A stretch of DNA of 64,000 nucleotides, taken from Paenibacillus sp. RUD330 (GTDB lineage: Bacteria > Bacillota > Bacilli > Paenibacillales > Paenibacillaceae). Shown here in pieces: positions 4,806 through 47,491 of this stretch; within the stretch, counting starts at the first letter, position 1; each line of letters starts with the position of its first letter. The position numbers and the translations under genes were made by a program. Location: the NCBI RefSeq assembly GCF_002243345.2, contig NZ_CP022655.2, positions 2,172,501-2,236,500 of the forward strand, read 5' to 3'. The notes under the pieces were generated by a model. It made no database searches. It had not been told where the DNA came from and was given only the letters and a program-made list of their open reading frames with translations.

Positions 4806-6849
4806 GCCGGGCACCGGCTGCGAGGCGTGGCTGGGCAGTCCTCCGGCGGCTCCAGCCGTTCGGGAGCAGGCGGCAACGTGGGCTGCCTGTCTCCACGCTT
4901 CCGAGACGGATGCTCCTGTAATATCATCCGCGCTGGAGGAGCTGAGGCGGGCGGTCGAAGGCTTGAGCGGCCAGGCTCCGAAGGACGGAATGCCGTCCGA
5001 AGGTGTCCGGGGCATCGTCCTCGGAACCTTCCGCGGCTGTCCGCAGGCCGCGGCGGCGTTCAGCAAGGAGGAGCAGGCGGCTGCCGGAGAGGGCTACCGG
5101 ATCCGGACGGCCGGCAGCAGCATCGTAGTCGGCGGCTCCCGCGCGGCTGGCGTGCTCTACGGCACGTTCCGCCTGATCCGGCTGCTCCGAGCGGGAGTCC
5201 CGCTGTCCGGGCTCGACATCGCCGAAGCTCCCGCCAATGCGCTGCGCATGATCAACCAGTGGGACAATGGAGACGGCAGCGTCGAGCGCGGCTACGCGGG
5301 GCGCTCCATCTTTTACCGGGACGGAGAGATCGCCGAGGATACAAGCCGCATCCGGGACTACGCGCGCCTGCTGTCGTCCGTCGGCATCAACGCCATCTCG
5401 ATCAACAACGTCAACGTGCATGAACGCGAGACCCGCTTCATGGGAGAAGAGGATCTGCCGAAGGTAGCGGGGATCGCCGCCGTCTTCCGGGAATGGGGCA
5501 TCTCCGTCTATCTGAGCGCGAACTTCGCGGCTCCGTTCGAGACCGGCGAGCTGGAGACGGCCGATCCTCTCGATCCCTCGGTCCGGCTGTGGTGGAGCCG
5601 GACAGCGGCCCGCATCTATAGGCATATTCCGGATTTCGGCGGCTTCCTCGTGAAAGCGGATTCGGAATTCAGGCCGGGACCGTACACGTACGGCCGGAAT
5701 CATGCCGATGGCGCCAATATGCTGGCCGATGCGCTGGCGCCGTTCGGCGGCCGCGTCATCTGGCGCTGCTTCGTCTATGACTGCAGGCAGGACTGGCGGG
5801 ACCGCAAGACGGACCGGGCCAGAGCCGCATACGACCACTTCAAGCCGCTTGACGGCAGATTCAGCGACAATGTCTTCCTGCAGGTGAAGAACGGGCCGAT
5901 GGACTTCCAGGTCAGGGAGCCCGCATCGCCGCTCTTCGGAGCGATGCCGGAGACGAACATGCTGGCGGAATTCCAGATCGCCCAGGAATACACCGGCCAG
6001 CAGAAGCATCTCTGCTATCTCGTTCCGCAATGGAAGGAGTCGCTCGACTTCGATACGCATGCGCGCGGCGAAGGGTCCTTCATCAAGGCGATCGCCAGCG
6101 GCAGGCTGCACGGCCGCGAAGCCGGAGGCATGGCGGCCGTGTCCAATATCGGGGACGACGACAACTGGACCGGCCATCTGCTCGCGCAGGCGAATCTGTA
6201 CGGCTTCGGCAGGCTGGCTTGGAATCCGGAGCTGACGGCTCTGGAGATCGCGGAGGAATGGTCCGCGCTCGCCTTCGGGACCGAGGGAAAGGCGGCCGCG
6301 ACGGTCGTTTCCATGCTGATGGAATCCTGGAGCATCTATGAAGCCTATACGGCGCCTCTGGGCGTGGGCTGGATGGTGAAGCCGAACCATCATTACGGAC
6401 CCGACGTGGACGGCTATGAATATTCCATGTGGGGCACGTACCACTTTGCCGACCGGGACGGCATCGGAGTGGACCGCACGAGCGGAACGGGAACCGGATA
6501 CGCATCCCAGTATTTCGCACCGAACCGGGAGCGCTACGAGCGGACGCAGACGACTCCGGATGAGCTGCTGCTGTTTTTCCACCACGTCCCTTACCTCCAT
6601 GTGCTGCATTCCGGCAAGACGGTCATCCAGCATATCTACGACTCTCATTTCCATGGAGCGGAAAGAGCGGAAGAGCTGGCTGCGAAGTGGGAATCGCTCG
6701 AGGGCGAGATTCCGGAGCCTGCTTTCGGAGATACGCTCCTCCGCTTCCGGCATCAGGCCGAGCATGCCCGCGAGTGGCGGGATGTCATCAACACCTATTT
6801 CTACCGCAAAAGCGGCATTCCGGACGAGCAGGGACGGACGATCTTCTGA
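4783..6849 (+). CDS. aguA: GH67 alpha-glucuronidase
   Basis: Removes (4-O-methyl)glucuronic acid from the non-reducing end xylose of aldouronates; cytoplasmic, no signal peptide. The product is about 688 residues, normal for GH67. An N-terminal beta domain (1-140) is followed by the TIM barrel with [18 protein letters not shown] (general acid Glu near residue 295), [35 protein letters not shown] (catalytic Asp/Glu region with [18 protein letters not shown]) and a helical C-terminal part with [20 protein letters not shown]. The ATG at 4783 has GGAAGGGGG eleven bases upstream; an upstream in-frame ATG at 4738 lies deeper within the xylosidase and lacks a good site. Co-transcribed with the xylosidase, it supplies glucuronate to the uxuA pathway at the left edge. 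Confidence 0.95.
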
Positions 6850-6934
6850 CGGCCGGGACGTGACGGCGGACGGGGCGAATCAGTCTTCCTTGCTTGTCGA
6901 GGCTGCCGGCTGCGATTCGAGGGGGGAGAGGACG

Positions 6935-7726
6935 ATGAGAACGGTCCGCCATGTGATGGATTGGCTTCAGGGAGCGGAGCAGCCTGCATCATCCGTCGAC
7001 GGCTTGCTCGCCGGCAGCGCGGACGAACGTCTGAAGGGTGTGGCGGTCGCATTCAACGCCTCCCTGGCCGTGCTGGAGAAGGCGGCGGCGGCGGGCGCCA
7101 ACCTGCTCGTCGTCCATGAAGGAATCTGCTACAGCCACGACGGCCGGGCGGAGTGGTCCGCCGGCAGCCGGGAAGCCGGCTTGAAGCGGCAATGGATCCG
7201 GCAGGCGGGGATGGCCGTCTATCGATCCCACGACGGTCCGCATCGGCGCGATCCGGATTGGATCACGGAAGGATTGGTATCGAGCCTCGGCTGGGGGGAA
7301 GCGGTAGAGACGTTGCTGCCGGCGGCGGCGGTCGTGCGCCTGCCGGAGCCGTCGACGGCCCGCTCCGTTGCGGAGCACGTCAAACGGAAGCTGAACATCC
7401 CCTGGCTGAGAGGGATCGGAGGCTTGGATACCCGATGCTGCCGGATCGGCGTCGCGGTCGGATACCGGGGAGGCGGATCCGTCGCCGTTCCTCTCTATGA
7501 GGAGCACGGCGTCGACCTGGTCGTCGCCGGAGAAGGTCCGGAGTGGGAAACGCCGGAATACGTCCGGGATTCCGTGCATCGCGGAGGTCGGAGGTCGCTG
7601 CTGCTGCTGGGGCATGCGGCCAGCGAGGAGCCGGGCATGCGGCTGCTCGCACAACGGCTGCGGGCGGCCGTTCCCGAAGTTCCGGTTCATTTTATCGAAG
7701 ATGCCTATTCATTCGCCGTATTGTAG
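6935..7726 (+). CDS. NIF3/DUF34-family protein in the xylan operon
   Basis: A 263-residue member of the NIF3-like (DUF34, formerly GTP cyclohydrolase 1 type 2-like) family, which binds two metal ions; biochemical role is unsettled. Visible family features are GVAVAFNASLAVLEKAAA, the metal-binding region NLLVVHEGICY, VYRSHDGPHR, the CRIGVAVGYRGGG segment and the C-terminal FIEDAYSFAVL. In most family members the first motif is HHP or DHP; here it is VHEG, and the second His lies in SHDG. The start is set by GGGGGGAGAGG just before ATG 6935. It sits between the glucuronidase and the GH8 enzyme, in the same orientation with short gaps, so it is probably part of the xylan operon. A glycan-linked role is inferred from position only. 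Confidence 0.8.
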   Translation: MRTVRHVMDWLQGAEQPASSVDGLLAGSADERLKGVAVAFNASLAVLEKAAAAGANLLVVHEGICYSHDGRAEWSAGSREAGLKRQWIRQAGMAVYRSHDGPHRRDPDWITEGLVSSLGWGEAVETLLPAAAVVRLPEPSTARSVAEHVKRKLNIPWLRGIGGLDTRCCRIGVAVGYRGGGSVAVPLYEEHGVDLVVAGEGPEWETPEYVRDSVHRGGRRSLLLLGHAASEEPGMRLLAQRLRAAVPEVPVHFIEDAYSFAVL

Positions 7727-7777
7727 AGCCGGAAGGCATGCAAGGGCTGAAAGCGTTCAAAGGGGAGGCAGGAGAGC

Positions 7778-8944
7778 ATGGGTCAAGCAGGCAACGGAGC
7801 GTTCCATACCGGGACGTATCGCAATCTGTTCATGGAAGCGGGCTATCCGTCCGATGAAATCAAATCGCGGGTGGAGGAGACGTGGAGCAAGCTGTTCGAA
7901 GGCGGCGAAGAGACGCGGATCTATTACGAAGCCGGGAGCGACAAGGGCTATCTGCTCGATACGGGCAACCTGGATGTCCGGACGGAAGGAATGTCCTACG
8001 GCATGATGATGGCCGTGCAATTGGACCGCAAGGACGTGTTCGACCGGATCTGGCGCTGGTCCTATGAATATATGCATATGAAGGAAGGCTGGGGCGAAGG
8101 GTATTTCGCCTGGTCCTGCAACAGAGACGGCACGCGGCGCTCGGACGGCCCGGCTCCGGATGGAGAGGAATACTTCGCGCTGGCGCTCTTCTTCGCCGCC
8201 AACCGCTGGGGAGAAGGCGAGCATCCTCTGGATTACAGCGCCAAGGCGAGGGACATCCTGCGCGCCTGCCTGCACAAGGGAGAGGAGGGAAGGCCCGGCG
8301 ACCCGATGTGGAACCGGGACAACAAGCTGATCAAGTTCATTCCGAATTGCGAGTATTCGGATCCTTCCTACCATCTGCCGCATTTCTACGAATTGTTCGC
8401 GCTCTGGTCCGATCCGGAGGACCGCTCCTTCTGGAAGGAGGCGGCCGAGGCCAGCAGGGCGTACATCCAGCTCTCCAGCCATCCCGACACCGGACTTGCG
8501 CCGGAGTACGCCCATTATGACGGAACGCCCAACGACGAGCGCGGCTACGGCAAGTTTTTCAGCGATTCGTACCGGGTCGCGGCGAACATCGGCCTGGATT
8601 CCGAGTGGTTCCGCGCCGACCCGGGCCAAGCGTACATCGCGGACCGCATCCTGACGTTCTTCGCGGACAAATCCCCCGGGGACTACCGCCGCTACGAGAT
8701 CGACGGCACTCCGCTGGACGAGAAATCGCTCCACCCCGTCGGGCTGGTCGCGACCAACGCCATGGCCGCTCTGGCGACCGGCGGGGAGCATGCGCTGAAT
8801 GCGGTGCGCCGGTTCTGGGATACGCCCGTTCGCACCGGAGACCGCCGTTATTATGACAATTGCCTGTATATGTTCGCAATGCTGGCTCTGAGCGGCAGCT
8901 ACCGCATCTGGATGCCCGAGGGAGATGCGGCCGCGCAGGACTGA
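7778..8944 (+). CDS. GH8 reducing-end xylose-releasing exo-oligoxylanase (Rex)
   Basis: Cleaves xylose from the reducing end of xylo-oligosaccharides (EC 3.2.1.156), with inversion. The 388-residue protein matches the Bacillus halodurans Rex so closely that key residues keep their published numbers: general acid E70 (in DVRTEGMSYGMMM), base D263 (in FSDSYRVAANIG) and H319 (in KSLHPVG), which contributes to reducing-end recognition. The (alpha/alpha)6 barrel spans nearly the whole length. No signal peptide is visible, so it acts in the cytoplasm. The start has GGGGAGGCAGGAG upstream. Together with the GH52 enzyme it degrades imported oligosaccharides from both ends. Confidence 0.93.
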   Translation: MGQAGNGAFHTGTYRNLFMEAGYPSDEIKSRVEETWSKLFEGGEETRIYYEAGSDKGYLLDTGNLDVRTEGMSYGMMMAVQLDRKDVFDRIWRWSYEYMHMKEGWGEGYFAWSCNRDGTRRSDGPAPDGEEYFALALFFAANRWGEGEHPLDYSAKARDILRACLHKGEEGRPGDPMWNRDNKLIKFIPNCEYSDPSYHLPHFYELFALWSDPEDRSFWKEAAEASRAYIQLSSHPDTGLAPEYAHYDGTPNDERGYGKFFSDSYRVAANIGLDSEWFRADPGQAYIADRILTFFADKSPGDYRRYEIDGTPLDEKSLHPVGLVATNAMAALATGGEHALNAVRRFWDTPVRTGDRRYYDNCLYMFAMLALSGSYRIWMPEGDAAAQD

Positions 8945-25406: not shown

Positions 25407-35616
<10,210 letters not shown>

Positions 35617-38177: not shown

Positions 38178-38267
38178 ATGTTCAATCAGGATTGGAGCCT
38201 GCTGCTGCTCACGGGACTCGCGTTTCTGGCGTTCCGAGGTCTGATTTCCTTCGCGGAGAGGTCATAA
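38178..38267 (+). CDS. 29-residue membrane peptide preceding kdpF
   Basis: A tiny frame encoding MFNQDWSLLLLTGLAFLAF and a short tail RGLISFAERS, one hydrophobic segment flanked by polar ends. AAGGGAG is well placed before the ATG, and GGAGGG for kdpF begins just after its stop, so it is probably translated as the first gene of the kdp operon. I do not recognise its family. By size and place it resembles a second KdpF-like stabilising peptide or a leader peptide. Confidence 0.55.
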   Translation: MFNQDWSLLLLTGLAFLAFRGLISFAERS

Positions 38268-38280
38268 GGAGGGAATAAGC

Positions 38281-38358
38281 ATGCTTGTGCTCGCTATCAT
38301 CGCTTTTGTCTGCATGGTCTACCTGGGTTTTGTTCTGGTTTATCCGGAGAAATTTTAA
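38281..38358 (+). CDS. kdpF: K+-transporting ATPase small subunit KdpF
   Basis: A 25-residue single-span membrane peptide (MLVLAIIAFVCMVYLGFVL then YPEKF) matching KdpF, which stabilises the KdpFABC complex. AGGAGGG lies seven bases before its ATG. It ends 26 bp before kdpA, the standard operon order. It is too short for most gene callers. Confidence 0.88.
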   Translation: MLVLAIIAFVCMVYLGFVLVYPEKF

Positions 38359-38384: not shown

Positions 38385-40067
<1,683 letters not shown>

Positions 40068-42197: not shown

Positions 42198-42758
42198 ATG
42201 AAAGCATTCATGACCGCATTCCGGCTGTCGGCGCTGCTGCTCGTCCTATGCGGGATCCTATATCCGCTCGCGACGACCGGAGCCGCGCAGCTTCTCTTCC
42301 CGAAGCAGGCCGAAGGAAGCCTGATCCATGTCGGGTCCGTACCCGCAGGCTCGGAGCTGCTCGCGCAGGAGACGGCATCGCCGGGGCGCTTCCAGCCCCG
42401 AGCATCCATGGCCAAGTATGATCCGACCGCGTCATCGGGCTCCAACCGGGCTGTCGGCACGAAGGAATATGTGGAAGAGACGCTGGCCAAGGCATCTGGT
42501 TGGCGCAAGCAGAACCCCGATCTTGCCGAGGTTCCGGCCGATCTCGTCACGGCCTCCGGATCGGGCTTCGATCCCGATCTGTCTCCGGAGGCGGCGAAAG
42601 CCCAGATTCCCCGGATCAGCCAGGCCAGCGGCATTCCGGCGGAGGACCTGACGAAGCTGGTGGACCGGCTGACGAAAGGGCGCCAGCTCGGCCTGTTCGG
42701 AGAGCCGAGGGTCAATGTGAACGCCCTCAATCTGGAGCTGTCCAAGCGGACTCCGTAG
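42198..42758 (+). CDS. kdpC: K+-transporting ATPase subunit C (KdpC)
   Basis: A 186-residue single-span subunit that increases ATP affinity of the pump. The N-terminal membrane segment (ALLLVLCGILYPLATTG) and the conserved blocks QLLFPKQAEGSLI, FQPRASMAKYDPTASSGSNR, PADLVTASGSGFDPDLSPEA and FGEPRVNVNALNLEL identify it. GGAGAAGGAG precedes the ATG. Seven bases separate it from the sensor gene that follows. Confidence 0.96.
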   Translation: MKAFMTAFRLSALLLVLCGILYPLATTGAAQLLFPKQAEGSLIHVGSVPAGSELLAQETASPGRFQPRASMAKYDPTASSGSNRAVGTKEYVEETLAKASGWRKQNPDLAEVPADLVTASGSGFDPDLSPEAAKAQIPRISQASGIPAEDLTKLVDRLTKGRQLGLFGEPRVNVNALNLELSKRTP

Positions 42759-42765
42759 GCCGGGC

Positions 42766-45090
42766 ATGGATTCTTACCGCAGGAAGTCCCCGGAGGAATT
42801 GCTGGAGTCGATCGACAGGCTGAAGCGCGGCCTGCTGACGGTCTATATCGGGCCGGTCAGCGGGGCGGGCAAGACGTATCATATGCTGCGCGAAGGCTGC
42901 GCCCGCGCAGCCAAGGGAGTCGACGTCGTCATCGGAGCGCTTGCCGCGCCGGTGTGGCCGGAGACGCTGGAGCAGGTCGGCGCGCTGGAGGAAATTTCGC
43001 CGCTCGTCTGGACGGAGAACGGCACGGGCATGCAGGATCTGGACATCGACCGCATCCTGGAGAGGATGCCGGAGCTGGTGCTGGCGGACGGACTCGCACA
43101 CCGCAACCGCCCTGGGGCTCCGCGGCCGACGAGGCTCGAGGATATCCGCCTGCTGATATCCAGGGGCATCAGTGTCATGACGACAGTCAATGTCTATGAG
43201 CTGGACGGATACAAGGAGCTCGCGCAGAGGCTGACCGGCGTCGAGGTCCGCTGCACGGTTCCCGACGATACGCTGGAGCTCGCGGATGAGGTCCGGCTGA
43301 TCGATGTGACGCCCGAGGCTCTGCTGAGCCGGATGGAGGACGCCAAGCGGAGAAGCGGCAAGGACGCTCCTCTGCTGCGCCAAGGGAATCTCGGCGTGCT
43401 GAGGGAGCTTGCCCTTCGCTTCGTGGCGGAGGAGGTGAACGAATCGCTGCGGCGCTATCGCCAGGGGATGGGGCTGTCGGGTCCTTCCGGAGCCGGCGAG
43501 CATATCCTGGTCAGCACCCAATATCATTGGAACGGCTCGCTGTATATCCGCCGCGGCGGACAGATCGCCAGGCGCCTCGGAGGGGCGCTTTCGGTCGTAA
43601 CCTTCCAGGATCCCCGCAAGCCGCTTTCCAAGGAAGGGGCTGATTTCCGCCGCAGCATGCGGAAGCTCTCCTCCAAGCTGGGCAGCTCCTTCGAGGAGCT
43701 GCCGAGTCCGGGAAGGCGCCGCCTTGCGGATGAGCTTGTCCGCTACGCCCACGCCCATGGAGTGACCCGCATCATCATGGGCCATTCCCGGCAGAGCCGC
43801 TGGGAGGAATGGCGCAAGGGCTCGGTGCTCGGCACGCTGCTCAAGAAAATGCGGAACGTCGACCTCTATCTCATCGCCGACCGGGAGTCCGGCGACGGCA
43901 GCCGCATCGTGACCGGAGCGTCGAGGGAAGGCAAGCGGCAGGAGCCGCATCGGCGGCTGACGGATGATGAAGTCAAGGAGGAGATCGGCAAGATCGGCAG
44001 GGGGCGCCTCAAAGTGTTCATCGGGGCGGCTCCCGGCGTAGGCAAGACGTATGCGATGCTTCGGGAGGGCAACGATCTGCTCGATAAAGGCATCGATGTC
44101 CGGGTCGGGCTGCTGGAGACGCATGGCAGGCCGGACACGCAAGCGCAGCTCGGCCGGCTCCCGGTCATTGCCCGCGCGGCTGCGGAGGTGAAAGGCGCAT
44201 CGCTGCAGGAGATGGACGTGGACGCTGTCATTGCCGCAAGGCCGGAGGTCGTGCTCGTGGATGAGCTGGCCCATACCAATATTCCCGGCAGCCGCAGCCG
44301 CAAGCGCTACGAGGATGTGCAGCGGATACTGGAAGCGGGCATTTCCGTGCTGACGACGGTCAATATCCAGCATCTGGAGAGCCTCAACGATGCGGTGGAG
44401 CAGATTACCGGCATCCGGGTGAGGGAAACGGTGCCGGACCGCCTGCTGCGGCTGGCGGATGAAATCCAGCTGATCGACGTCTCTCCCCGTTCGCTGCAGC
44501 AGCGGATGCGGGAAGGGAAGATCTACGCCATGGACAAAGTGGATCAGGCGCTGAACCACTTCTTCCGCACGGGCAATCTCATCGCCTTGCGCGAGCTCGC
44601 CTTGCGGGAGCTCGCCGACGATGTCGACGAGCGGCTGGAATCGCGGAGCGACAGCGGCTCGCTGCGCGGCCCGTGGCGGCGCAAGGAAGTCATCTTCGTC
44701 TGCGTCAGCGCCTCCCCGGGAGCGGAACGTCTTATTCGCCGCGGCTTCCGGACGGCTTTCCGGCTCAAGGCGGATTGGCATGTCCACTACGTGCGGGACG
44801 GCATGGACTCCCGAGGGGACGCCGCACGGAGGGTGGAGGAGCTGGAGAGGGTCACGATCCTTCTTGGAGGAGATTTCGTCGTTCACCAAGGCGGATCGCC
44901 TCGCGAGACCGCCGCTATCCTTGCGGCCGAAGCCGGGAAGGCGGAAGCGACCCAGCTCGTCATCGGGCAGCCGAGCCCGTCGTTCTCCAAGGAATGGAGG
45001 AACGGCTCGCTCGTCCGGAGCCTCCTCCGCGAGGCGAGGCATCTGGATGTGCTCATCGTTGCTGATTACGAGCCGGGACATGCGCTATAA
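42766..45090 (+). CDS. kdpD: KdpD cytoplasmic sensor half with two tandem sensor-USP modules, no kinase domain
   Basis: A 774-residue protein made of two successive copies of the KdpD N-terminal region (KdpD sensor plus universal stress protein domain). Copy 1 (about 20-375) has Walker A GPVSGAGKT at residue 29, but the DELAH motif reads DGLAH. Copy 2 (about 410-772) has GAAPGVGKT at residue 420 and the normal VDELAHTNIPGS. Each is followed by a USP-like domain (ILVSTQYHWNG; VIFVCVSASPGAE). The membrane, HisKA and HATPase parts are absent and are encoded by the next gene, 44 bp downstream. Normal KdpD is one protein of about 900 residues with one sensor module. In this group the USP domain can bind c-di-AMP, so two sites may be present (inference). 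Confidence 0.93.
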   Translation: MDSYRRKSPEELLESIDRLKRGLLTVYIGPVSGAGKTYHMLREGCARAAKGVDVVIGALAAPVWPETLEQVGALEEISPLVWTENGTGMQDLDIDRILERMPELVLADGLAHRNRPGAPRPTRLEDIRLLISRGISVMTTVNVYELDGYKELAQRLTGVEVRCTVPDDTLELADEVRLIDVTPEALLSRMEDAKRRSGKDAPLLRQGNLGVLRELALRFVAEEVNESLRRYRQGMGLSGPSGAGEHILVSTQYHWNGSLYIRRGGQIARRLGGALSVVTFQDPRKPLSKEGADFRRSMRKLSSKLGSSFEELPSPGRRRLADELVRYAHAHGVTRIIMGHSRQSRWEEWRKGSVLGTLLKKMRNVDLYLIADRESGDGSRIVTGASREGKRQEPHRRLTDDEVKEEIGKIGRGRLKVFIGAAPGVGKTYAMLREGNDLLDKGIDVRVGLLETHGRPDTQAQLGRLPVIARAAAEVKGASLQEMDVDAVIAARPEVVLVDELAHTNIPGSRSRKRYEDVQRILEAGISVLTTVNIQHLESLNDAVEQITGIRVRETVPDRLLRLADEIQLIDVSPRSLQQRMREGKIYAMDKVDQALNHFFRTGNLIALRELALRELADDVDERLESRSDSGSLRGPWRRKEVIFVCVSASPGAERLIRRGFRTAFRLKADWHVHYVRDGMDSRGDAARRVEELERVTILLGGDFVVHQGGSPRETAAILAAEAGKAEATQLVIGQPSPSFSKEWRNGSLVRSLLREARHLDVLIVADYEPGHAL

Positions 45091-45134
45091 TAGGCAGAGC
45101 TGCAGGAGCGCGCGGCGCAAAGGAGAGATGCGGA

Positions 45135-46784
45135 TTGTCAGTCAGCGGCAAGCCGGCGGATGGCGAGAACGTTCCTGAGAACGTCGGAGCGGAAGCGGGA
45201 GGGGGCGGCGCGAGCCGGAGACGGAACGCAGCCATGCCCTATGGAATCGTAGCCTTGTCGATCGGCGTGCTGTCGGTATGCCTTCATCTGCCCGGCTTGG
45301 CTTACGATACGGTGAACGCTGCCTTGCTCTTTCTGTTCCCGGTGCTGTTCGCCGCCGCATACGGAGGGAGAGGGCCGGCCGTTTTTGCGGCCGTCGCCGG
45401 CATACTGGCGTTCGACTTTTTTTTCATTCCTCCGGTATGGAGCTTTACGGTGGCGGATTTGCGCTATCTGATTTCTTTTGCTGTCTATCTGGCCGTCGCC
45501 CTCATGACGGCCGGACTGGCGGCTCGGCTCAAACGGCAGGCCGAGGCGGCTAGGCGGCAAGAGCGCGGCACGGCGGCGCTATATGTCATGAGCCGGCTGA
45601 TGTCCGACGTCAGCGATGTCCCTGCCGTGCTCCGCGCGTTCAGCGGACATATCCGCGGCGCTTGCGGATTGGCCGCCGATTTTTATGTGCCGGACAAGGA
45701 AGGGGAGCTCCGGCCGTTCGGGCTGAATCCGCCGGACGGTTCCGTGAATGGGACGGTTCGAGGGCAGGAGCTGCAAGGCCAGGACCCCGTGCTGATCGCC
45801 CGCTGGGTGTACCGGCACGGGGAGCCTGCCGGACAGGGGACCGGCAAGCTCGGCGGCTCCGCCGGATGGTTCATGCCGCTCAAGGCGGAGGACCAGACGT
45901 ACGGGGTGGCGGAGATTCATGCCCTCGGACAGGACATTTCCCCGGCCGTCGTCCTGCAGGTCGAGGCTTTGAGCGGCCTGGCCGGAAGCGCGCTCGCCCG
46001 CATCAAGCGCGGAGAGGATGCCAAGCTGGCCCAGCTGACCGCCGAATCGGAGCGGATGCGCACCGCGCTGCTGGATTCCGTCTCGCATGAGCTGAGAACC
46101 CCGCTGGCGGCCATCATCGGCTCCTCGACCGGCCTGCTGGAATCCGGCGCGCTGTTCTCCGAGGAAGACCGCTCCGAGCTGCTCGGCACGATTCGGGACG
46201 GCGCGCTGCGCATGAACCGGCTCGTGACGAATCTGCTCGGGATGGTGCAGCTGGAGAGCGGCATGATCAAGATGCGGCGGGAATGGCTGGATGCCGGCGA
46301 GCTGGCCGGAATCGTGATCCGCCAATTGAAGGAAGCGTTGGGGAGGCGCAAAGTGCGGCTTATGATCAGCGAGGATCTGCCGCCGCTTCCCGGAGATATC
46401 GTCCTGCTGGAGCAGATGCTGGCCAATATCGTGAGCAACGCCATCAAATATTCTCCCGATGGCAGCGACATCAGGCTGCAAGCCTTTGTCCGCGGCCGGA
46501 ATCTGGTTCTGCGCATCGAGGACGAGGGCCCCGGATTGAGCGAGGAGGAGGGGCGGCGCATCTTCGACAAGTTCTACCGCTCGGAAGCGACTCGCCATAT
46601 TCCGGGCACGGGACTCGGACTCTCGATCGCCAAGGGCATCGCGGACATGCACGGGGGTTCCATCAGTGCGGGGCCGGGGAGCTCCGGCAAGGGCGCGGCC
46701 GTGACCGTGCTGCTGCCGCTGGCCATGCCTTCCAACGCACAGCCGGCCGAATCATCAGATCCAGCGACAGAGAGCAGGGAATAG
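45135..46784 (+). CDS. kdpD: KdpD membrane/histidine kinase half (split KdpD)
   Basis: A 549-residue histidine kinase corresponding to the C-terminal half of KdpD. It starts at TTG with AAGGAGAG eight bases upstream. DUF4118-type membrane region (about 33-130, four spans, including AVAGILAFDFFFIPP), GAF-like domain (about 145-295), HisKA with H318 in LDSVSHELRTPLAAI, and HATPase_c with MLANIVSNAIKYSPDG (N box), IEDEGPGLSEEE and GTGLGLSIAKGI. The frame is complete and has its own start signal, so this is a stable gene split rather than a frameshift. It should phosphorylate KdpE, with the sensor protein acting in trans. Confidence 0.93.
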   Translation: MSVSGKPADGENVPENVGAEAGGGGASRRRNAAMPYGIVALSIGVLSVCLHLPGLAYDTVNAALLFLFPVLFAAAYGGRGPAVFAAVAGILAFDFFFIPPVWSFTVADLRYLISFAVYLAVALMTAGLAARLKRQAEAARRQERGTAALYVMSRLMSDVSDVPAVLRAFSGHIRGACGLAADFYVPDKEGELRPFGLNPPDGSVNGTVRGQELQGQDPVLIARWVYRHGEPAGQGTGKLGGSAGWFMPLKAEDQTYGVAEIHALGQDISPAVVLQVEALSGLAGSALARIKRGEDAKLAQLTAESERMRTALLDSVSHELRTPLAAIIGSSTGLLESGALFSEEDRSELLGTIRDGALRMNRLVTNLLGMVQLESGMIKMRREWLDAGELAGIVIRQLKEALGRRKVRLMISEDLPPLPGDIVLLEQMLANIVSNAIKYSPDGSDIRLQAFVRGRNLVLRIEDEGPGLSEEEGRRIFDKFYRSEATRHIPGTGLGLSIAKGIADMHGGSISAGPGSSGKGAAVTVLLPLAMPSNAQPAESSDPATESRE

Positions 46785-46786
46785 AG

Positions 46787-47491
46787 ATGACAACCGAACG
46801 AACAGGAGCGCGGGTGCTGATCATTGACGACGAGCCGCAAATCCGCAAGCTGCTGAAGGTGACGCTGCAGGCGCATCAATATGAAATCTATGAAGCCGCC
46901 ACGGCGGAGTCGGGAATGCTGGAGGCTTCCATGCACCATCCGGATCTCGTCATCCTGGATCTCGGCTTGCCCGACATGGCTGGCATCGAGGTGCTGAGAC
47001 GGCTCAGGGAATGGTCGTCGGTGCCGGTCATCGTGCTGACGGCCAAAGACCGCGAGGAAGATAAGATCGAAGCTCTGGATGCCGGAGCCGACGATTACGT
47101 CACGAAACCGTTCGGCATGGGCGAGCTGGTCGCGCGCATGCGTGTCGCCCTGCGCCATGCGGCCAACAAATCCGGCGGCGAGCCGGTGCTGCGCTTCGGG
47201 GAGCTCGCCATCGACCTGGCCCTCCGCAGCGTAGAGCTGTCGGGCAGCCGCCTGAAGCTGACTCCGACGGAGTACGACCTGCTGAAGGCGCTGGCCTCCA
47301 ATGCCGGCAAGGTCATGACGCAGAAGCAGCTGCTGCAGCAGGTGTGGGGCTCCAGCAATCTCTCCTCCGAAGGCCATTATTTGCGAATCTACGTCGGGCA
47401 TCTCCGCAAGAAGCTGGAGGAGGATCCTGCGGATCCGCGGTATATTGCCACCGAGCCGGGAATCGGATACCGGTTTTTGACCGGGGAATGA
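46787..47491 (+). CDS. kdpE: KdpE response regulator (OmpR family)
   Basis: A 234-residue DNA-binding regulator of kdp transcription. Receiver domain (about 8-122): DDEPQ acidic pair, D58 in LVILDLGLPDM, Thr in VIVLTAKDREED and Lys in YVTKPFGM. Winged helix of the OmpR type (about 135-232): LKLTPTEYDLLKALASNAGK and RIYVGHLRKKLE, ending IGYRFLTGE. The ATG is two bases after the kinase stop; a weak CAGGGA site suggests coupling. It is the last gene before a terminator. Confidence 0.95.
   Translation: MTTERTGARVLIIDDEPQIRKLLKVTLQAHQYEIYEAATAESGMLEASMHHPDLVILDLGLPDMAGIEVLRRLREWSSVPVIVLTAKDREEDKIEALDAGADDYVTKPFGMGELVARMRVALRHAANKSGGEPVLRFGELAIDLALRSVELSGSRLKLTPTEYDLLKALASNAGKVMTQKQLLQQVWGSSNLSSEGHYLRIYVGHLRKKLEEDPADPRYIATEPGIGYRFLTGE

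Follow-up and report, generated by a model that had tools for sequence, protein, structure and literature searches.

A two-module KdpD/Usp protein with an intact and a glutamate-less module in the kdp operon of Paenibacillus sp. RUD330

The kdp operon and its two-module KdpD protein

The window analyzed here, a stretch of 64,000 nucleotides from Paenibacillus sp. RUD330 (contig NZ_CP022655.2, positions 2,172,501 to 2,236,500), contains a complete kdp operon consisting of kdpF, kdpA, kdpB, kdpC, a gene encoding a two-module KdpD, a kinase gene and kdpE (Table 1). The two-module gene encodes a protein, below named the twin protein, in which a KdpD N-domain (PF02702) followed by a Usp domain is present twice, and the first of these modules (copy 1) lacks the Walker-B glutamate that is intact in the second (copy 2). 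Both PF02702 copies score above the curated cut-off of 26.1 bits and the two Usp regions lie in the same open reading frame (ORF), in which no kinase domain was found by domain search. A sequence-only reading of this DNA had described one gene with two KdpD/Usp modules and no kinase, followed by a second gene with a TTG start and a ribosome binding site that holds the membrane and kinase parts, and had noted an intact Walker A and a DGLAH instead of DELAH in copy 1. The domain searches agree with this description, and its coordinates and motifs are correct. The kinase gene is preceded by an AAAGGAG stretch approximately 10 nt 5' of its TTG and contains DUF4118, HisKA and HATPase_c domains as well as a weak match to GAF; its product corresponds to residues 413-889 of the E. 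coli-type KdpD model PRK10490, which has 895 positions. Thus, instead of the full-length single-polypeptide KdpD layout with N-domain, Usp, transmembrane (TM), GAF and DHp-CA parts, two genes in different frames are present.

Table 1. Features of the kdp operon in the window (positions are those of the whole stretch)
Feature	Coordinates	Strand	Score
kdpF (25 aa)	38281..38358	+	
kdpA	38385..40067	+	
kdpB; TGES motif present, the site of the Ser phosphorylated in E. coli	40064..42142	+	
kdpC	42198..42758	+	
Twin-module KdpD/Usp protein, 774 aa, ATG start, without histidine kinase domain	42766..45090	+	
Copy 1 KdpD N-domain (PF02702, residues 20-224), predicted pseudo-ASK	42823..43437	+	202 bits
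Copy 1 Walker A GPVSGAGKTY, intact	42850..42879	+	
Copy 1 Walker B LVLADGLAHRN; Gly (GGA at 43090-43092) in place of the catalytic Glu	43075..43107	+	
Copy 1 Usp domain	43492..43881	+	
Copy 1 Usp beta1-alpha1 loop QYHWNGS, nearly invariant across the family	43519..43539	+	
Copy 2 KdpD N-domain (PF02702, residues 412-620), predicted active ASK	43999..44625	+	317 bits
Copy 2 Walker A GAAPGVGKTY	44023..44052	+	
Copy 2 Walker B Asp-Glu (D499 E500), intact	44260..44265	+	
Copy 2 Usp domain; in the model similar to the S. aureus KdpD Usp structure with c-di-AMP (7ji4), Z 12.6	44683..45069	+	
KdpD C-terminal half as separate gene: TM (DUF4118), GAF, HisKA, HATPase_c; TTG start, 549 aa	45135..46784	+	
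kdpE, response regulator	46787..47491	+	

Loss of the Walker-B glutamate and conservation of the first module

The N-domain of KdpD is an atypical serine kinase (ASK) that phosphorylates Ser162 of KdpB and inhibits the pump. In E. coli KdpD, Walker A and the Trp39/Arg190 pair matter for this activity, the Walker-B residues Asp109 and Glu110 are both needed, and the exchange E110A abolishes KdpB phosphorylation (PMC11018627). In the window protein the Walker B of copy 1 reads VLADGLAH and that of copy 2 VLVDELAH, the glycine codon GGA being aligned with the GAG for glutamate in copy 2. To put this difference into the context of the family, residues were counted in 50 asymmetric twin proteins, which are related sequences, so that the counts do not equal independent events. 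Copy 2 has the Walker-B Glu in all 50 proteins, whereas copy 1 has it in only two; the position is otherwise occupied by Gly (34), Asp (10) and one each of Ser, Arg, Gln and His. Walker A retains GKT in both copies (50/50 each), and copy 1 moreover keeps the Walker-A Lys/Thr, the Walker-B Asp, the His, the Asn and the residue corresponding to Arg190 in 50/50. Copy 2 retains all catalytic and adenine-site residues described in PMC11018627 except at the Trp position. Of the adenine-site pair Trp39/Arg190, the Arg is present in both copies, and the Trp position is Tyr in the window protein; apart from E. coli KdpD, nearly every KdpD examined has Tyr or Phe there. The loss of the Glu from copy 1 is therefore family-wide and surgical.

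Among modules that stand alone in their locus the Glu is present in 67/68. Mapping its presence or absence (E/not-E) onto a tree of 67 rows gave six changes, all of them forced by starred branches. Losses lie on separate branches, namely copy 1 of the Bacilli, the upstream gene of an Acidobacteria pair (Gly), the full-length KdpDs from a Bacillota metagenome-assembled genome (L139, DGLAT) and from P. sedimenti (L074/L120, DNLQH), and the loci L073 and L157. Except for L157, every loss is accompanied by a second, Glu-bearing module in the same locus. The proposed catalytic Glu is thereby backed by evolution, as it is retained in lone modules and was lost several times beside another module. As the Glu-less full-length KdpD comes in addition to either a twin gene or two single genes, the operons of P. 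sedimenti and L139 have three KdpD modules each.

Copy 1 is under strong purifying selection and is not decaying. Between the window and the locus of its sister species (G004, locus L046, 96% identical) the two domains of copy 1 have ratios of nonsynonymous to synonymous substitution rates (dN/dS) of 0.080 and 0.071, those of copy 2 have 0.106 and 0.156, and the kinase gene has 0.21, which gives approximately 0.08 against 0.11 for the two N-domains. In the Usp domains conservation is even reversed, since one loop is nearly invariant in copy 1 and variable in copy 2: the residues of the copy-1 loop QYHWNGS are found, in this order, in 49, 50, 42, 46, 50, 47 and 48 of the 50 proteins, whereas the commonest residue in the same columns of copy 2 reaches just 9-41 of 50. 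In the structure 7ji4 of the S. aureus KdpD Usp domain with cyclic di-AMP (c-di-AMP), the loop region corresponding to QYHWNGS carries ligand contacts. The published S. aureus-type motif for c-di-AMP binding, (A/G/C)XSXSX2N-(Y/F) with five positions, is found with 4/5 positions in copy 2 and 0/5 in copy 1, and so lends no backing to the earlier idea that copy 1 binds c-di-AMP. However, a Deinococcus short KdpD, a relative of a c-di-AMP-responsive protein, matches only 1/5. Hence the motif is an unreliable guide to c-di-AMP binding in short KdpDs and was rejected as a test.

An AlphaFold model was built on 21 twin sequences (mean predicted local distance difference test, pLDDT, 75.8; predicted template modelling score, pTM, 0.65). 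In this model the N-domain of copy 2 resembles the P. syringae KdpD N-domain 2r8r (Z 25.4), and Usp1 and Usp2 (model residues 243-774) together match tandem UspE proteins with Z of approximately 21 over about 248 residues. From this match we infer that the two Usp domains may pack on each other as a UspE-like pseudo-dimer.

Distribution, ancestry and transcriptional context

The arrangement recurs in relatives, as a survey of Paenibacillus kdp operons revealed: the sister species carries the same two genes, and a two-module frame is present in 7/8 genomes of the genus. Within a sample of the family, PF02702 scored above the cut-off in 106/150 genomes, and nearly all of the best matches listed lie in frames of approximately 770-880 aa. 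A survey of the class gave three frame sizes, ~360-470 aa for a single module, ~755-850 aa for two modules and ~850-930 aa for the full-length protein. In total, 60 loci were fetched and parsed, and in nearly all loci that have a two-module gene it follows kdpC; named relatives with such a gene include Paenibacillus, Cohnella, Saccharibacillus and Bacillus methanolicus. The two-module gene is therefore usual in Paenibacillaceae and in several further families of the Bacilli. Apparent frameshifts that split a gene in two frames were seen in the twin-gene copy 1 of G147 (L057 6857-9172) and in kdpB of G202 (L072 4242-6208).

A tree built from 89 modules separates the two copies of the asymmetric twins into clades of 29 rows each (support 100/100 for copy 1 and 100/99 for copy 2). 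Both clades span the same nine family groups, and the stem leading to copy 1 is long (0.8). As each copy forms one clade across nine family groups, the asymmetric kind goes back to one old duplication, which rules out a recent local one. A symmetric kind of twin in the family groups f17, f26 and f59 forms its own pair of sister clades and hence was duplicated separately, so that a single common origin of all twin KdpDs is ruled out too. Unfused adjoining genes of the symmetric kind are found in L077 and L078, and neighboring unfused modules also in L139. Further two-module proteins come from L124, a cyanobacterium, and L127, a melainabacterium, and single-module genes occur in pairs in Acidobacteria (L126, L128). 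All full-length KdpDs of the tree fall into one clade of their own. Some relatives (L064, L073 and L074/L120) have a full-length KdpD, of a separate lineage, besides the twin gene; no relative was encountered in which the same sequence forms an intact one-gene KdpD, a finding that would have spoken against the sequence-only reading. The N-modules of the window lie far from all full-length KdpDs, and the splitting of a full-length KdpD of the window itself is unsupported for them. The kinase half groups with the stand-alone kinases of the family and with the corresponding part of the full-length KdpD from P. sedimenti, and the tree is compatible both with the loss of an N-module and with its original absence.

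The kdp operon of the window and the sister species differs in lineage from that of the other species of the genus (L046 versus L045 and L047-L050), with KdpA reaching 1186 bits in the sister species and approximately 614-635 bits in the others. Moreover, these two operons have a kinase and KdpE and no riboswitch, unlike the other species of the genus, and a horizontal replacement of the operon in this lineage is possible.

In at least 24 twin-gene operons, kdpA is preceded by one or two c-di-AMP riboswitches (RF00379) at a distance of approximately 320-1170 bases and a co-oriented kinase gene is absent; in five of these 24, a related kinase gene lies upstream in the opposite orientation. Conversely, seven twin operons with a co-oriented kinase or full-length KdpD have no riboswitch (the window, L046, L051, L055, L058, L064, L067), and P. 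sedimenti (L074) gave a borderline riboswitch match of 38.3 bits. No c-di-AMP riboswitch was detected before kdpA in the window, even at E-values up to 5; elsewhere the genome has five c-di-AMP riboswitches, and it encodes two diadenylate cyclases. The twin protein is thus retained whether the likely transcriptional control is by a c-di-AMP riboswitch or by a two-component system with KdpE. Since it is present even in operons without a co-oriented histidine kinase, it is a regulator in its own right and more than a sensor half of the adjoining kinase, and its retention under either transcriptional control argues for the pump as its main target. The locus L052 (G080:C1:4520500-4533000) contains an orphan twin KdpD (DSLAH/DELAH; gene 6324-8666): kdpABC is absent from this locus, and the gene has a c-di-AMP riboswitch of its own, 180 bases 5' of it. 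In several genomes of the same genus a second, similarly long PF02702 frame is present elsewhere.

Two further observations concern the window itself. Directly 5' of kdpF lies a hydrophobic ORF of 29 aa (38178-38267, + strand) with no match in Pfam or NCBIfam. Many kdp operons of Bacilli (L051, L053, L069, L077, L100, L103) have similar-looking small membrane ORFs in this position, which suggests an undescribed small Kdp-associated membrane protein. Furthermore, two very long open frames overlap on opposite strands, 25407-35531 (-; 3374 aa) and 25894-35382 (+; 3162 aa), of which one is probably a very large gene and the other its antisense frame.

Proposed function and comparison with known systems

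Taken together, we consider it probable that the twin protein is a linked pair of short KdpDs that controls the pump post-translationally, with copy 2 as kinase and copy 1 as pseudo-ASK or sensor, and with the histidine kinase and KdpE being responsible for transcription. The 774-aa protein would then be a covalently joined pair of regulators acting on the pump after translation. Copy 2 would be the working ASK, which phosphorylates the Ser of the KdpB TGES motif and closes the pump at high K+. Copy 1 would be a pseudo-ASK that binds ATP, and probably KdpB or its twin, without the Glu that activates the serine, and its Usp domain with the conserved ligand pocket may act as a sensor or allosteric switch. 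Usp-Usp packing as in tandem-type UspE would make the protein a built-in asymmetric dimer, and the separate membrane histidine kinase would, together with KdpE, set transcription in place of the c-di-AMP riboswitch of most relatives' kdp operons. In other species ASK activity, the need for the Glu and c-di-AMP control of short KdpD have been published (PMC11018627 for ASK), the enzymology being taken from E. coli and D. geothermalis; for the twin protein itself, the activity of copy 2, the loss of activity and the regulatory role of copy 1 and the Usp pairing are inferred by us. The earlier suggestion that one module became a pseudo-copy holds insofar as copy 1 looks able to bind nucleotide but not to catalyze, judging from the family-wide Glu loss and the purifying selection. 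The associated idea that sensing was separated from catalysis is not supported in that form, because the N-module has serine kinase activity of its own towards KdpB (PMC11018627) and the twin gene is retained where no co-oriented kinase is present. The view of one KdpD split in two should therefore be replaced by that of a doubled, asymmetric serine-kinase regulator beside a separate histidine kinase.

Several points weigh against this interpretation. The copy-1 Glu is still there in two lineages (L083, L092), and other twins, from three other family groups of the Bacilli class, a cyanobacterium and a melainabacterium, have the Glu in both copies. Because these hold both sites intact, asymmetry is not needed for a twin KdpD, the Glu loss is permitted rather than obligatory, and joining two modules has a value even without it. 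In addition, c-di-AMP is no more than a candidate ligand of either Usp domain, and the Usp-Usp packing comes from the 21-sequence model, whose pTM of 0.65 is given without an inter-domain error estimate.

A more specific version, which is attractive but which we hold only tentatively, is an obligate ASK/pseudo-ASK heterodimer with swapped duties, in which the Usp1 pocket (QYHWNGS) would sense a small molecule, the dead P-loop domain would be allosteric and module 2 would be the pump-closing kinase. As the Walker-B Glu was lost several times in extra modules, one active ASK with pseudo-ASKs would then be a recurring design in the K+ control of bacteria.

It is rather unlikely that the twin protein is instead the cytoplasmic sensor half of a split KdpD, docking in trans on the membrane histidine kinase and setting its kinase/phosphatase balance like the E. 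coli N-terminal domain. The two genes are indeed only 44 nt apart with kdpE next, one-gene KdpDs have the same domains fused to the kinase, and P. sedimenti has a fused copy right after its twin gene; however, the riboswitch-bearing operons without a co-oriented kinase hold the twin gene in the same form, which still allows a second role in kinase-bearing operons. Less likely again is that the duplication merely forces dimerization or raises the dose and that the Glu loss is the neutral decay of a redundant site. The intact sites of the independent twin forms and the variability of the copy-1 position (G, D, S, R, H, Q) would fit such a decay, but it would neither spare all neighboring catalytic positions in 50/50 and keep dN/dS near 0.08 in copy 1, nor create a nearly invariant new Usp loop. 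A sequencing or assembly artefact, that is, a false duplication or a frameshift splitting one gene, is hardly credible and has no point in its favor, as the same layout is present in the sister species, which excludes a base error joining or splitting the genes, and in dozens of genomes across the family, with the copies forming separate old clades.

The serine kinase activity of KdpD was reported in 2024, with its regulation listed as an open question (PMC11018627). Separate ASK and histidine kinase chains are already published, whereas for a doubled or pseudo-ASK KdpD no report was found in open-access full texts, and the main text of PMC11018627 mentions no doubled form. Like the short KdpD/Usp ASK of the Deinococcus geothermalis type (PMC11018627), the twin protein consists of N-domain and Usp without histidine kinase and is encoded after kdpC, with Walker A and B intact in copy 2; it differs in having two modules per chain, the first of which is without the catalytic Glu and shows a distinct Usp loop signature. 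The split ASK/histidine kinase chains described mainly in Acidobacteriota and Chloroflexota (PMC11018627) likewise have the ASK module and the TM/GAF/DHp-CA kinase on separate polypeptides, but here the ASK chain is doubled and asymmetric. Both copies match NCBIfam NF038185, the KdpD-like non-kinase potassium sensor, a model of just 373 positions, and the twin protein reaches 705 bits (cut-off 550), whereas the copies singly stay under the cut-off with 429 and 280 bits. The predicted packing of the two Usp domains is like that of tandem-type Usp proteins (UspE, TTHA0350, Rv2623), except that each Usp of the twin protein is preceded by a P-loop kinase-type domain. The natural and widely conserved pairing of an intact with a Glu-less module in the twin protein, which has no predicted membrane segments, makes it directly possible to tell ATP binding, catalysis and ligand sensing apart. 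Two homologous nucleotide-binding halves, one of them without the catalytic acid, are also known from kinase/pseudokinase pairs and from ABC transporters with one degenerate site, which belong to unrelated families and are comparable to the twin protein by analogy only.

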